64,000 bases of DNA from Desulfatirhabdium butyrativorans DSM 18734. GTDB taxonomy: Bacteria > Desulfobacterota > Desulfobacteria > Desulfobacterales > Desulfatirhabdiaceae. The translations under genes and the position numbers were made by a program. Shown here in pieces: positions 1-39,983 of the stretch. The notes under the pieces were generated by a model that saw only the letters and a list, made by a program, of their open reading frames with translations, had not been told where the DNA came from and made no database searches. Each line of letters begins with the position of its first letter. Position 1 is the stretch's first letter. Where the stretch lies: positions 1 through 64,000 of the forward strand of contig NZ_AUCU01000008.1 in NCBI RefSeq assembly GCF_000429925.1, read 5' to 3'.

Positions 1-448
1 TTCCGAATTTTTCCATTTCGCCAAACTGGCTGAAAGGCCTTTTTACCGTGCGTCCAATGCAAGATTACCGCATGAAACAGTCGGGGGTTCGAAACGGAAT
101 TTCCCTGGTCCGTTTAGGTCTCAGAGTTACACTCATCTCTATAAAGTTGCTCGACCAACACCCGCCCTAGAGGTCTGTAGATAATACTACACTATCCATT
201 TTCATGCACGGGGGCGAGCAAGCCCTTGATCATGAGGGTTTAGGCTGTCAAGGTACTCTAACTGCAGCAGAGTTGTGTAATGTAGAACTCTACGGAAGAT
301 CATGGCTGATCGAAATGTTGGGAAAGAAGAATATAGAAAAATCGGCTATTTTGGCGATGGATGCTAAACGAAAAAAGATTATTTGATGGATTGTGGAAAA
401 AGCATGAACCTCAATGGGGGATTATGAACAGCCCAGGCGAAGTATATC
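1..448. other. No supported gene at left edge
   Basis: I see no recognisable gene here. A 60-codon open frame at 204-386 has no familiar motif and no good ribosome site. The sequence looks like degraded intergenic DNA upstream of the amidohydrolase. Confidence 0.4.
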
Positions 449-508
449 GTGCCTGAACGAAAAACCCCTATTGCATATCATATTGTGAAACGATTGATGA
501 GAGGGCTA

Positions 509-3371: not shown

Positions 3372-5618
3372 ATGAGGAAGATATTGCGCGTGGTCATACT
3401 GCTTTTGCTGACCATTGCCTGCATGACCGGCTGCCAGAAACAGGAAAAGCCGATCACCTCGCTGGATGAGGCCAAGACTGCCAAGATCGGCGTGATGGTG
3501 GGTACCACCGGCGAACAGATCACCAAAGAACGTTTTCCCCAGGCGCAGGTCAAAAGTTTTGACGATGTGATGGATGCGGTGGCGGCCCTGAAGTCGGGGC
3601 AGCTTGAGGCGATCGTCACCGCCCTGCCTACCGCGGTGCAGGTGGCAAAGACAAACAAGGAGTTTACGGTCCTTCAGGAACCGCTGGATCATGAAGATAC
3701 CGCCATTGCCTTGAGAAAGAGCGACATCCAGCTACTGGACGACCTGAACCGTATCATTGCAGAGCTGCATGCAGACGGCACTCTGGCTTCCATGCGGAAA
3801 CGCTGGCTCAAGCCTGACCTTGGTCCCTATGAAGAGATCAGCTACACCCCGCCCACAACCGGCACACCACTCAAGATCGGGGTCTGTGCCACCCGTGAAC
3901 CGCTAACCTTTGTTGATAAGGATGGACGGATCAGCGGTCATGATGGTGAGCTGGCCCGCCTGATCGGGGTCAGGCTCAACCGGCCGATCCTGTTTTCAAA
4001 CATGAAGTTCATGGCCCTGATTCCGGCCCTGCAGTCCGGCAAGGTGGATATGATCCTGAGCGGCATAAATATCACGGAAGAACGGAAAAAAGCGGTTAAC
4101 TTCACCCAGCCCTACTTTTCCAATGCCCAGGTGATGCTGGTAAAAAAGACTGCTCAAACTGCAACGGCGTCAGACGATGCACTGGCTGGGTTGGGCAACA
4201 AGCGGATCGGCGTTCTGCTGGGCTCGGTTCATGACGCCTACGCCACCAGAAAGTACACCCGGGCCACCATCCTGCAGTACAAAAGCCCTCCCGACCTGGT
4301 GCTGGCAGTGAAATCAGGCAAAGTGGATGCCGCCTTTTATGTTTATGAGATCCTGCTGGAGATGCTGCGCCACGACCCGGATCTGGCCCTGGTGGGCAAA
4401 CCGCTCTTTACGGTGCCGATCGGCGTCGGCTTCAACAAGAACAACGTTGAGCTACGCACCAGATTCAATACGTTTCTGAAAGAGATCAAGGCAAACGGGC
4501 AGTATGATGACATGGTCAGACGCTGGATCCTGCAGGGAAACACCCAGCCGGTGGAGGTAGAGATGGCAAAAACCAATGGCCGTCTGATCATCGGCACGAC
4601 CAGCAACACGGGGCTGCCGTTTACCATTGTCAAAGAGAACAGGATGATCGGCTTTGATATTGAGCTGGCCGAGCGGTTTGCCGCCTGGCTGGGCAAAGAG
4701 CCGGTGTTTGTGGACATGGAGTTCGGCAGCCTGATCGCTGCGGCAGCAACCGGCAAGACCGACACCATCTTCAGCACCCTGATGATCACCGACGAGCGCA
4801 AGAAACAGATCGCCTTTTCAGAGCCGTACTACGAACTGGGGACCAGTGTTTTTGCCCTGAAGAAGAACGTCGCAGGCGCCGTGCCGGACAACCACGCTGC
4901 ACCATCTGCCATTGCCCGGTTCTTCAGGGGGATCGCCACCAGCTTCCAGAGCAACATCATCCAGGAAAAACGGTATCTGCTCATCTGGGACGGCCTGAAA
5001 ACCACTGTGATTATCTCGATTTTCTCCACCCTTTTGGGTACCGGGCTTGGGGCCCTGATCTGCCTCATGCGGATGGCAAAGAGCCGTCTGCTCTCTGCAC
5101 CGGCAAAGCTCTACATCTCCATCCTGCGGGGCATGCCGGTACTGGTGCTTTTAATGCTGATTTTTTACGTGGTCTTTGCCTCGGTCAACATCAACCCGGT
5201 GATTGTGGCGGTGATCGCCTTCGGGATGAACTTTGCCGCCTATAGCGCCGAGATATTCAGAACCGGCATAGAAGGTGTGGAAAAAGGGCAGACCGAGGCA
5301 GGTATCTCTTTGGGCTTCACCAGAACCAGCACCTTTTTTTACATTGTCCTCCCCCAGATGATCCGCCGGATCCTGCCGGTCTACAAGGGGGAGTTTATCT
5401 CACTGGTCAAGATGACCTCCATTGTGGGGTACATTGCGGTGCAGGATCTGACCAAGGCCAGCGACATCATCAGAAGCCGCACCTTTGACGCCTTTTTCCC
5501 CCTGGTGATGGTGGCGATCCTCTATTTCCTGATCTCCTGGACACTGATGCAGTCCCTGACCTATCTGGAAAGGATCACCGATCCGAAATACACAAAAAGA
5601 AAGGTGGCCACGCCATGA
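3372..5618 (+). CDS. Fused amino-acid ABC importer: binding domains plus permease
   Basis: 748 aa lipoprotein-type membrane protein combining the periplasmic binding and membrane parts of a polar amino-acid (His/Glu type) importer. The signal ends in a lipobox with Cys21 (ACMTGC). Residues about 33-155 look like the second lobe only of a bac_3 binding domain. About 165-395 is a complete two-lobe domain, and about 403-505 is a first lobe only. Residues about 530-735 form the HisM-type permease, with the EAA-like segment around [11 protein letters not shown]. The stop overlaps the start of the ATPase gene by 4 bases, so the two should be translated together. The ligand is unknown. The order lobe2, lobe1-lobe2, lobe1 is unusual. 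Confidence 0.88.
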
Positions 5619-6706
5619 TCCAGGTGACACACCTCTCCAAGAGCTATGGTGATCTCACCGTACTGAAAGACATCTCGCTGCAGGTCGCAAAAGGTGACGT
5701 CATCTCCATCATCGGACCATCCGGCACCGGCAAATCCACCTTCCTGCGCTGCCTCAACCTGCTGGAGCGTCCCAGCGGCGGCTCCATTATCGTGGATGGC
5801 ATCGATCTGATGGATAAAAAGAGCGATCTGCCCAAGATCCGCCAGCGGATGAACATGGTCTTTCAATCTTTCAACCTGTTTTCCCATCTGACGGTACTGG
5901 AAAACCTGACCCTTGGACCGATCAAGCTTCGGGGGATCCACAAACAGGAAGCACAACAGAAAGCTCTGGAGATACTCAAACTGGTGGGGCTGGCGGAAAA
6001 GGCCCATCACTTCCCGGATGAACTGTCCGGCGGTCAGAAGCAGCGGGTGGCCATTGCCCGCTGCCTGGCCATGGAGCCGGAGATCATCCTGTTTGACGAG
6101 CCGACCTCAGCCCTTGATCCCACCATGGTCAGCGAGGTGCTGGCGGTGATCCGACGGCTGGCCAAAGACGGCATGACCATGCTGATCGTAACCCACGAGA
6201 TGGATTTTGCCCGCGATGTCTCAAGCCGGGTACTGTACATGGACGAAGGGCTGATCTACGAAGAAGGCACTCCGCAGCAGATCTTTGAAAATCCGCAAAA
6301 GGAGAAGACCAGGGCGTTCATCAACCGGATACGCAGCCTCAACTACCGGATTGAATCCAGCGATTACGATCTCTATGCCATAAATGCCGAGATCGAGAAC
6401 TTCTGCGAAAGGCAGATCCTGCCCAGAAAGAGCCGTCACAACCTGCTGTTGCTGGTGGAGGAACTGCTGCTGGTACATCGGCCGCTTCTGCCTGAAACCC
6501 CCCTTGACCTTGCCATCGCCTACTCGGAAAAGAAGGAGTCCCTGATGGTGGCGCTTGAGTACCAGGGGACAACCGGCAATCTGCTGGACAAGGACCGGCT
6601 GACCGACGAACTGGGGCTGAACATTATCAACCACCTGGCCCAGGGGGTCGACTATCAGCGTACAGGCGACATCAACCGGCTGACGGTGACCCTGAAACCA
6701 TCTTGA
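5615..6706 (+). CDS. Amino-acid ABC transporter ATPase with GHKL-like C-terminal extension
   Basis: Cytoplasmic ATPase partner of the fused importer just upstream. Residues 1-245 are a standard GlnQ/HisP-type domain: Walker [11 protein letters not shown]-loop MVFQSFNLF, signature LSGGQKQR, Walker [14 protein letters not shown] and switch VTHEMDF. Ordinary members stop near 240-250 aa; this one continues to 363. The extra 110 residues ([12 protein letters not shown], then [15 protein letters not shown] and NRLTVTLK) look like an RsbW-type histidine-kinase-like ATPase fold. The asparagine expected after the EELL motif is missing, so that domain is probably degenerate or regulatory. This assignment is from pattern only. 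Confidence 0.85.
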
Positions 6707-7050
6707 AACCGGCGACAGGGACTGCCGACACCTGTGGCGGCGATTCATCCAAACTCAGGCATTGACATCGCCATCACAACACAACCAGACATAGGATGTG
6801 CTCATAAGTAAGTAAACGACTCTCGGTATGACGGCGGAGGATCGGCACCTGAATAGATGGATGCACGCTTGCCCCCTCATGGCTGATTCTCCGTTTATCC
6901 AGTTCATTGACCGACCGCTTATGCCAGAGTGCGCCCAGCATTCACCTTCATCGAATTCAAATATGGCTTTACTTTCAGACTTATAATGCCTATTATTGCA
7001 TTGTATTTCAGGCTTTTTGTGGGCTTAATAGCAAAACAAGGGTGTCTCCC
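6707..7050. other. Intergenic, no gene seen
   Basis: About 340 bases separate the importer from the ATPase gene. I see no gene and no convincing promoter. The open frame of the next gene extends upstream to 6907, but those codons do not resemble the family. Confidence 0.4.
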
Positions 7051-8370
7051 ATGGAACGTGCCATTGACCATTATCTGCAGCAGTGGAAAGATGCCGCCAG
7101 GCGCAAACCTCTGGTCATCCGTGGCGCCCGTCAAGTGGGAAAGACCTACTCTATCCGTCAGCTTGGAACAACCTTTCCTTACTATGTGGAGGTCAATTTC
7201 GAAAAAGACCGGCAGATTGCCGGTGTATTCAGTGGTTCTCTGTCCCCCCGAACCATCTGCGAGAAGTTATCGGTCTTTTACCGAACTCCCATCGAGGCAG
7301 GAAATACGCTTCTGTTCTTTGACGAGCTGCAGGTCTGCCCGGATGCCATCCGCGCATTACGGTTTTTCCAGGAAGAGTTCCCGGAACTGCACCTGGTAGC
7401 TGCAGGTTCGCTGCTTGAATTCGCCCTTGCCGAAATACCAACACACGGCGTCGGACGCCTGACGAACCTGTTCATGTACCCGCTTTCCTTTGAAGAGTTC
7501 CTTACCGCACTGGGAGAGGGACAACTTGTGGCGATGATCAACAACGGTTCGCCAGAACAGCCTCTGGATCAGCTTTTCCACGACCGTTTGCTTGAACTGC
7601 TGCGAGTTTTCCTGATTATCGGCGGTATGCCGGAGGTGGTTCAGCAGTACATTGAACAGCGAGACATACTCTTCTGCCAGCGACTGCAGGATGATATCAT
7701 CATCACTGCACGGGACGACTTTGCCAAGTACCGTGCGCGTGCCCCCCTTGCCAGGTTGGATGAGGTGTTCCGGGCCATTCCGTTTCAGACCGGCAACAAA
7801 TTCACCTACGCATCTATTGATCCATCGGTAAAATCAACCATCTACAAGGATTGTCTGGACATGCTGGTCCAGGCAGGTCTCGCCTATCTGGTGTATCATA
7901 CCGCAGCACAGGGGATACCTCTTGGCGCGCAGGTCAAGCCAAACCTGTTCAAGGCAATCTTGTTCGATGTTGGCATCCAGCAGCGGCTGCAACGCAACGA
8001 TGTCTCGCTTTTGCTTACGGCCAGCGATCACAACGAGATCAACCGGGGGAACATTGCCGAGGCGTTTGTGGGCACAGAACTGATAAAACATGGCCCGACC
8101 CATCTGCCCCCTGCCCTCTACTACTGGCGCCGCCAGGCAAAAAGCAGCAATGCCGAGGTTGACTATGTAGTACAACTGGGGAACGAAATCGTACCTGTTG
8201 AGGTCAAATCCGGCAGCAAGGGAAGCATGCAGAGCATGCATCTGTTTCTCAAAGAACGCGGCCTTCCCTACGGTATCCGGGTTTCAACTGAAAATTTTTC
8301 CGCATATGACAAAATCCGGGTAGTGCCGCTGTATGCCGTGAGTACCATACAGCGGGAATTGATACTGTAG
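7051..8370 (+). CDS. AAA ATPase with DUF4143 domain
   Basis: 439 aa protein of the AAA_14/DUF4143 family, whose biological role is poorly known. An N-terminal ATPase domain has Walker A GARQVGKT, Walker B LLFFDELQ and the sensor segment LVAAGSLLEFAL. The DUF4143 region follows, and a C-terminal nuclease-like fold carries EVDYVVQ and VPVEVKSGS, the acidic/lysine pattern of PD-(D/E)XK-like domains. ATG 7051 was chosen because the family begins at this point (RAIDHYLQQW); an upstream in-frame extension is unlike the family. It stands alone, and such genes often move between genomes. Confidence 0.85.
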   Translation: MERAIDHYLQQWKDAARRKPLVIRGARQVGKTYSIRQLGTTFPYYVEVNFEKDRQIAGVFSGSLSPRTICEKLSVFYRTPIEAGNTLLFFDELQVCPDAIRALRFFQEEFPELHLVAAGSLLEFALAEIPTHGVGRLTNLFMYPLSFEEFLTALGEGQLVAMINNGSPEQPLDQLFHDRLLELLRVFLIIGGMPEVVQQYIEQRDILFCQRLQDDIIITARDDFAKYRARAPLARLDEVFRAIPFQTGNKFTYASIDPSVKSTIYKDCLDMLVQAGLAYLVYHTAAQGIPLGAQVKPNLFKAILFDVGIQQRLQRNDVSLLLTASDHNEINRGNIAEAFVGTELIKHGPTHLPPALYYWRRQAKSSNAEVDYVVQLGNEIVPVEVKSGSKGSMQSMHLFLKERGLPYGIRVSTENFSAYDKIRVVPLYAVSTIQRELIL

Positions 8371-39616: not shown

Positions 39617-39629
39617 AAGGATTTGAACC

Positions 39630-39983
39630 ATGCGGATCGAAACCCGAACATCGGATGATCTGCTGATCATCACGCCATTGGACAACCGGATCGATGCTTC
39701 GATCGCCCCGGATTTCAAGGGGCATATCATGAACTGGATCAACGAGGGCAACATCCGGATCCTGCTCGATCTGTATCATGTGGAATTCATCGACAGCAGC
39801 GGGCTGAGCGTTCTGGTATCGACGCTGAAGGCGCTTGGGGGAAAAGGGGATTTCATGCTGTGCTCCATCTGCGACACCGTCATGAATCTGTTCAGATTGA
39901 CGCGGATGGATCGGATATTCAAAATCTATCCATCGGTCGAGGAAGCCCTCAAGGCGATCAAGGGAAACAACAAACCGGAATGA
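39630..39983 (+). CDS. STAS-domain anti-sigma factor antagonist
   Basis: 117 aa SpoIIAA/RsbV-like protein that competes for an anti-sigma or related kinase partner. The phospho-acceptor loop VEFIDSSGLSVLVSTLKAL is intact (the Ser pair is where a kinase acts). No anti-sigma kinase or sigma factor lies next to it. Start ATG 39630 is 13 bases after the rubredoxin-membrane gene; the next gene overlaps its stop by 4 bases (ATGA). Confidence 0.88.
   Translation: MRIETRTSDDLLIITPLDNRIDASIAPDFKGHIMNWINEGNIRILLDLYHVEFIDSSGLSVLVSTLKALGGKGDFMLCSICDTVMNLFRLTRMDRIFKIYPSVEEALKAIKGNNKPE

Follow-up and report, generated by a model that had tools for sequence, protein, structure and literature searches.

GlnPQ-type importers, among the closest described systems to the one analysed here, carry two substrate-binding domains ahead of the transmembrane domain of the same chain (SBD1-SBD2-TMD) and rely on a separate ATPase. 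The window, a 64,000-nucleotide stretch of Desulfatirhabdium butyrativorans DSM 18734 (contig NZ_AUCU01000008.1, positions 1 to 64,000 of the forward strand), contains two genes that resemble these systems (Table 1). The first encodes tandem amino-acid-type solute-binding proteins (SBPs) N-terminal to a permease, the second encodes the ATP-binding cassette (ABC) ATPase, and the GlnPQ-type structure 6h30 of the PDB is matched by sequence. Unlike GlnPQ, the SBPs of the window are circularly permuted and the ATPase bears an RsbW-type tail. We read the pair as an amino-acid-type importer with permuted receptors and a pseudo-RsbW docking or regulatory tail that in some relatives is linked with a partner switch, and we give this reading a probability of about 0.6. 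The anatomy itself (domain order, units and tail) we regard as nearly certain.

Permutation of SBPs is already known. Betaine-binding proteins including OpuAC have been reported to be circular permutants of each other (PMC2395249), the binding domain of Lactococcus OpuA comes after the transmembrane domain (PMC2861598) and MglB-2 of Treponema is a permuted type I sugar-binding protein (PMC4990184). MglB-2 is similar to the present case in being a natural permutation of a membrane-tethered binding protein, but it has a type I fold in which just the N lobe is reordered, and the part of the report available to us describes no permease fusion (PMC4990184). In the present case the permutation lies inside the SBP_bac_3 family and in tandem arrays fused to a permease. 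In the open-licence papers searched we found precedents for the parts and none for the whole combination, in line with the first-pass annotation of this DNA, made from the sequence alone, for which such a layout was not known to be described.

Three stretches of the first protein match SBP_bac_3 in Pfam (PF00497; 224.4 bits, curated cut-off 26.4), the best of them at residues 167-387. The N-terminal stretch (residues 81-147) corresponds to profile positions 97-131 and the last one to positions 5-95, while a solved amino-acid-binding protein from the PDB aligns by its lobe 2 and its C-terminal chain end with residues 36-147. Taken together, the Pfam positions and the PDB alignment give the order (lobe 2 plus end of lobe 1) - full SBP - (start of lobe 1) - permease. 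The first-pass annotation had proposed the order lobe 2, full SBP, lobe 1, permease, in a fused receptor-permease encoded next to its ATPase by just two genes; Pfam and the open reading frames (ORFs) bear out the two genes, and the order is right as well, except that its 'lobe 2' also holds the C-terminal piece of lobe 1. With that piece included, the segments sum to two whole SBPs. If L2C1 denotes lobe 2 together with the C-terminal part of lobe 1, and N1 the N-terminal part of lobe 1, each unit runs L2-C1-N1, and no single domain shows the classical chain order (N1 - lobe 2 - C1). The first protein is a lipoprotein-like signal followed by two tandem circularly permuted SBP_bac_3 domains fused to a permease.

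Do the relatives share this register? We annotated 82 sources with family hidden Markov models (HMMs): 21 loci from a protein search, 60 stretches from tail-carrying genomes and the window. Runs of L2C1-N1, in that order, make up 101 of the 108 ORFs with SBP parts. The unit exists alone (49 single-unit ORFs and one double-unit ORF) and fused to the permease in one, two, three or four copies (19, 20, 11 and 1 ORFs, respectively); the two-unit layout of the window recurs in two named genomes (L009 and L010, 77% and 73% identity). The seven exceptions comprise remnants, one L2C1-N1-N1 protein (L161), a sensor-like protein with a weak N1 match and L126:138-1652, a classical N1-L2C1-TMD fusion whose neighbouring ATPase ORF has no tail. 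Since this last protein was reported as such, the pipeline detects the classical order where it is present. Linker lengths, measured after a near-full-length filter that kept 100 of the 108 ORFs and dropped eight, tell the same register: the C1-to-N1 linker has 16-19 residues in 145 of 145 cases (68/68 single-unit proteins and 77/77 units of multi-unit proteins), whereas the N1-to-L2 linker between units varies from 13 to 31 residues (45 measured), with 15 in the window according to its family HMM matches. A linker that is fixed inside the unit and loose between units is expected if the domain boundary sits at N1/L2. In addition, 41 of 48 measured stand-alone units stop exactly at the end of the N1 model. 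Natural single, double, triple, quadruple and stand-alone permuted receptors thus offer a test of chain connectivity in a Venus-flytrap receptor and of its coupling to the permease.

An AlphaFold2 model of the two units of the window, built from an alignment of 23 rows (A2), has a predicted local distance difference test score (pLDDT) of 88.6, falling below 50 only at residues 1-5 and in the linker between units (245-250); model residues 15-246 correspond to residues 32-263 of the protein, that is, unit 1. Each unit forms a single globule in this model. In VIA-align the first four rows are all OpuAC, which is the top match of both units in chain order: unit 1 (model 15..246) fits 2b4l with Z 13.4 and 4.3 Å over 205 residues, and unit 2 (252..486) fits 2b4m with Z 12.6 and 4.5 Å over 209 residues. 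Identity to OpuAC is only 12-13%, though, and by sequence the units fall outside the OpuAC family, their best families being SBP_bac_3 and amino acid SBPs. The latter fit N1 alone closely (0.8-3.2 Å over 88-96 residues), but across model residues 144..333, over the supposedly complete middle SBP, their root-mean-square deviation (rmsd) rises to about 14-17 Å, and one of them, spanning 101..472, reaches 26 Å. Foldseek gave TM-scores by query length of at most 0.25 among the 50 matches listed, and full-length classical SBPs on the two-unit model had rmsd values of 14.7-28.7 Å among those same matches. Such poor fits are as expected for a permuted two-domain chain, but the domain arrangement affects them too.

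The tail of the ATPase had been likened to an RsbW-type kinase fold with its N-box Asn missing. By Pfam this likeness is weak, the tail alone matching HATPase_c_2 under the cut-off (E 4.3e-4; 20.7 against 27.4 bits), but by predicted fold it is clear. The AlphaFold2 model obtained from 17 tails (alignment A1) reaches a pLDDT of 90.5 and a predicted TM-score (pTM) of 0.85, and in the PDB it matches UsfX, RsbW and SpoIIAB best, in several cases as structures solved with their STAS partner; UsfX 8ih8_C fits with Z 14.7 and 2.4 Å over 118 residues (VIA-align). The modelled tail clearly has the fold of these anti-sigma factor kinases. It differs from them in being fused to an ABC ATPase, in lacking the N-box Asn and the G1 Asp and in having a shortened ATP lid. 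The N-box Asn is absent from the tail of the window, as had been noticed, and from 76 of 77 fused tails; the G1 Asp is absent from all 77, the window included, and both residues are present in 20 of 20 stand-alone kinase-like proteins of the same loci. The lid is about 10 residues shorter (G1-G2 spacing of 15-17 vs 26) and the base Glu is retained in 73 of 77 tails. Conservation in the fused tails is highest in the first helix and in the loop that follows (mean majority-residue frequency 0.83 each, n=77), whereas in the stand-alone kinases the lid is best conserved (0.78) and the first helix reaches 0.57. In SpoIIAB and RsbW, the first helix takes part in partner binding, and the conservation pattern of the tail would suit a docking domain. 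A domain that retains the fold, together with a strongly conserved first helix, while losing the nucleotide-site features of the stand-alone kinases is most likely a docking or regulatory module and not a kinase, and the tail is probably a regulatory pseudo-kinase.

Two other identities were considered for the tail. That it is a standard ABC C-terminal domain, which the first-pass annotation had named as a refuting outcome, finds no meaningful sequence match (best NCBIfam E 0.15; PDB search at chance level, E 0.23). A working kinase is disfavoured by the missing N-box Asn and G1 Asp and by the short lid, even though one divergent fused tail (L158:4492-5643, G229) is the sole one of the 77 that keeps the N-box Asn; this tail is possibly closer to the original kinase domain.

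Further hints about the tail come from the genes around it. We considered the gene runs around the tailed ATPase (same strand, gaps of at most 350 nucleotides) in 77 loci, some of whose runs end at contig ends; the counts are raw and uncorrected for relatedness. A SpoIIE-type phosphatase is found in 19 runs, a STAS protein in 23 and a stand-alone RsbW-like kinase in 17, with phosphatase and STAS together in 14 and all three in 11, and a phosphatase or STAS gene adjoins in 28 loci. The STAS gene lies directly behind the ATPase gene in 23 of the 76 loci with at least 900 nucleotides downstream, among them loci from Chlorobiaceae, Desulfuromonadaceae, Methylococcaceae and Verrucomicrobia. In 13 of the 77 loci (e.g. 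L019:2162-3196) the run also has, before the phosphatase gene, a gene for an NMT1-like binding protein, and the fullest order, seen in L019 and others, is NMT1 > phosphatase > SBP > (SBP)3-permease > SBP-permease > ATPase-tail > STAS > kinase. In example neighbours, Pfam identified Cache-HAMP-SpoIIE, STAS, HATPase_c_2 and NMT1; a response-regulator-SpoIIE protein was identified in one relative from Methylophilaceae. As in RsbU-RsbV-RsbW switches, phosphatase, STAS and kinase are thus encoded together in some relatives; unlike in those switches, importer genes are interleaved with them. Built-in sensory parts, also proposed for this importer, gain an indirect basis from the relatives in which the ATPase gene adjoins partner-switching genes and are otherwise unsupported.

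There is a precedent for a STAS protein acting on an ABC ATPase: MlaB, a STAS protein, binds the ATPase MlaF, in part via the C-terminal extension of the latter (PMC7367683). The extension of MlaF is, on the other hand, reported to be an elongated tail that takes part in self-dimerisation, an RsbW-type domain goes unmentioned in the available part of that report, and its authors state there that they found no further PDB entry with both STAS and ABC domains (PMC7367683).

The domain order, the register of the units, the predicted fold and lost motifs of the tail and the gene neighbourhoods are computational results, and from these elements the following model can be drawn. The first product would be a membrane-anchored chain in which two circularly permuted solute-binding domains are joined to the permease, and with two such chains in a presumed homodimer there would be four receptors. 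Every permuted domain (lobe 2 - C1 - N1) would fold by itself, so that both of its ends, and with them the link to the permease, would sit at the hinge between the lobes. Where relatives also encode a STAS antagonist, a Cache-HAMP-SpoIIE phosphatase and an RsbW kinase that looks functional, the tail would likely have the STAS protein as its partner; that it is the partner where co-encoded is a tentative assignment, for which we see not quite even odds. The phosphorylation state of STAS would then set its docking on the transporter, with two possible consequences: i) transport is regulated or ii) STAS is held by the transporter, the direction of control being something we infer either way. Through this docking, nutrient uptake would be tied to the partner switch. 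In a bolder version the transporter itself would be the sensor input: the permuted receptors would signal ligand via the hinge-attached permease to the ATPase, and the pseudo-RsbW tail would capture or release the STAS antagonist of the phosphatase-STAS-kinase circuit. We consider this version possible and somewhat doubtful. In either form, an ABC ATPase with an anti-sigma-kinase-type domain, accompanied in some relatives by the complete switch set, makes a physical link of nutrient transport to partner switching testable.

Several observations count against the reading that we favour. On the receptor side, the pTM of the two-unit model is 0.50, and its topology was judged from matches and confidence values. 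Chain-order matches to a single unit are made by SBPs other than OpuAC as well, at lower Z and over fewer residues (Z 10.6-11.3, 169-183 residues), such as GlnPQ SBD1 (4kpt_A) on unit 2 (259..485; Z 10.8, 3.2 Å, 169 residues) and OccJ (5org_B) on unit 1 (9..245; Z 10.7, 3.6 Å, 183 residues). The two lobes of the SBP fold resemble each other, so matches in chain order may arise with the lobes exchanged. The structure matches therefore give firmer backing to a single globule per unit than to kinship with OpuAC, although OpuAC in particular likely has the same connectivity as the units. On the side of the tail, neither a phosphatase nor a STAS gene is present in the gene run of 49 of the 77 loci, the window among them, with some runs ending at contig ends. 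An importer-clade STAS match at 1e-8 was obtained in 18 of 20 genomes searched and in none of the remaining two, G484 and G489, where importer and tail are present. Lastly, loci lacking switch genes conserve the first helix no less than loci that have them (0.82 vs 0.83), as would also be expected of a role inside the transporter.

These last three points are what speaks for the best surviving alternative, a purely structural or intramolecular regulatory tail that has no STAS partner and lies near switch genes incidentally. C-terminal domains of other importer ATPases serve dimerisation or inhibition. This alternative, possible in our view and short of probable, has to account for a STAS gene directly behind the ATPase gene in several groups, for a fold that is that of STAS-binding proteins and for the fact that phosphatase, STAS and kinase belong to one pathway.

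No partner-switch genes adjoining the importer were found in a search over the 64 kb of the window, where an HMM made from the phosphatases of 9 relatives had no match and the tail HMM matched nothing besides the ATPase itself. A STAS-domain-like ORF of 117 amino acids (39630-39983, or 39627-39980 in the search over 64 kb), 33 kb downstream, is distant from the STAS proteins of importer operons (E 1.2e-15). The best STAS of the importer clade in this genome lies on another contig (E 1e-33, the ten best places in the 20 genomes being at 6e-46 to 5e-52), and the best HATPase_c_2 protein, a 155-amino-acid frame, is also on another contig. In Trichlorobacter there is likewise no STAS adjacency, and a STAS gene stands ~30 kb off on the same contig beside an RsbW-like gene; at L169:578-2267 these two follow what, judging by its sequence, we take to be an HD-GYP-like gene.

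A second alternative is that the importer is mainly a receptor, its fused units no longer binding amino acids as usual and serving as a sensor for the switch. In LAO and HisJ an Arg of lobe 1 binds the alpha-carboxylate of the ligand and an Asp of lobe 2 binds its alpha-amino group. Nearly all stand-alone units (46 of 48) and every middle unit (13 of 13) retain the Asp, which is absent from most of the fused first and last units (kept in 8/33 and 12/32) and from all single-fused ones (0/21); the two units of the window have Ala and Val at this position. Many fused units thus probably bind something besides a standard amino acid, or bind it differently, and the amino-acid class of the ligand is only what we infer. 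Nevertheless, all 147 units examined, those of the window among them, have the carboxylate-binding Arg, the ATPase motifs look intact, and import of a different carboxylate is an equal possibility, so that we find the mainly sensory role unlikely.

Far less probable is a classical SBP in the middle with a second SBP built from the two end segments, the arrangement of halves around a complete receptor that had initially been proposed. Pfam does call residues 167-387 one full domain, and the 15 residues between N1 and L2 in the window are compatible with a classical hinge crossing. Such an arrangement is, however, impossible within one chain for the single-unit and stand-alone proteins; arrays of three and four units exist, and the linker lengths, one globule per unit and the 14-17 Å fits of classical SBPs all oppose it, in favour of the permuted units. 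A gene in decay, or one misassembled, that holds incomplete SBP copies, the former another outcome named as refuting, recalls the remnants and odd orders of L025, L108, L118 and L161 and is ruled out by conservation across phyla, multi-unit arrays included, and by the open frames and full-length units of the window and the same layout in L009 and L010.

Table 1. Features of the importer locus, with positions in the window.
Feature	Length or residues	Position	Strand	Basis or content
First protein, ORF	748 amino acids	3372-5618	+	SBP domains and permease
Signal peptide with lipobox-like end (MTGC, Cys21), first protein		3372..3434	+	Sequence
Permuted SBP unit 1, part L2C1	32-146	3465..3809	+	Family HMM, 131 bits; Pfam; PDB alignment
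Permuted SBP unit 1, part N1 (closes unit 1)	167-258	3870..4145	+	Family HMM, 120 bits; model
Permuted SBP unit 2, part L2C1	274-386	4191..4529	+	Family HMM, 146 bits
Permuted SBP unit 2, part N1	403-497	4578..4862	+	Family HMM, 125 bits; model
Permease (transmembrane) domain	524-742	4941..5597	+	PF00528; TIGR01726; PDB 4yms
ATPase, ORF	363 amino acids	5615-6706	+
GlnQ-type ABC ATPase domain	1-236	5615..6322	+	PF00005, E 1e-36
Degenerate RsbW/SpoIIAB-type C-terminal domain (predicted fold)	241-360	6335..6694	+	AlphaFold2; PDB matches; profile A1

The two ORFs overlap by 4 bases. Both genes were found together in several phyla by the protein search of relatives and the tail profile, a recurrence that excludes chance. 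The permease matches PF00528 (BPD_transp_1) at residues 563-734, TIGR01726 (HEQRo_perm_3TM) above its NCBIfam cut-off and the permease of PDB 4yms with E 5e-34. The best NCBIfam match of the ATPase is GlnQ, with 320 bits where the equivalog cut-off stands at 379, and its Walker A, signature and Walker B motifs are readable. By sequence, a permease together with a GlnQ-type ATPase carrying all three motifs places the pair with the PAAT/GlnPQ-type importers. Among the relatives examined, 34 of 53 fused and 44 of 49 stand-alone proteins have a simple lipobox pattern before their first unit, and at least several of those that miss the pattern still have a Cys there. On either side of the importer lie ORF 449-2257, presumably an amidohydrolase with a twin-arginine-like signal, and ORF 6907-8370, which we take to be an ATPase with a DUF4143-like end.

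How widespread is this system? The 21 loci of the protein search come from Geobacteraceae, Desulfuromonadaceae, Chlorobiaceae, Methylophilales, Methylococcaceae, Verrucomicrobia, a Gemmatimonadetes genome and others, so that the pair does occur in Geobacter-like genomes, where the first-pass annotation had advised looking for it. All 21 genomes that yielded the permease contain the tail. Counted with profile A1 at E ≤1e-10, the tail is found in 39 of 98 genomes of the class of a Chlorobiaceae genome, in 7 of 187 of the Methylotenera family, in 16 of 141 of the Trichlorobacter order and in 2 of 146 of the order of the window. Its phylum holds 4 strong cases in 297 genomes and 24 matches at E 1e-3, the remaining 20 scoring 21-38 bits and 18 of them lying in frames of 106-171 amino acids. 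In a quick tree, the ATPase-tail protein of the window groups with Geobacteraceae and members of the Trichlorobacter order (8 rows, 98, starred), one of which is 85% identical to it. This grouping, combined with the rarity in its own order, makes it likely that the importer of the window was acquired by horizontal transfer. Mapped on the ATPase-tail tree, the presence of switch genes requires 15 changes, compared with a shuffled mean of 22.9 and none of 500 shuffles as low, in a quick-method tree that has long branches and leaves 26 of its 73 inner branches open.

Some loci show further peculiarities. Remnants or partial units, with a truncated L2 or an extra N1, are found in L025, L108, L118 and L161, which suggests that units are still being gained and lost. 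The stand-alone double unit of L027 has its permease in another frame and its last N1 cut; this permease gene (L027:1045-3373) and the ATPase gene at L023:7688-8808 are each split over two frames, either really or by an assembly error. At L126:138-2392, the classical fusion and its tail-less ATPase share a contig with a permuted operon that is ~2 kb away. Finally, genome G476 has two importer loci (L121 and L122) ~206 kb apart on one contig, whose ATPase-tail proteins are identical.

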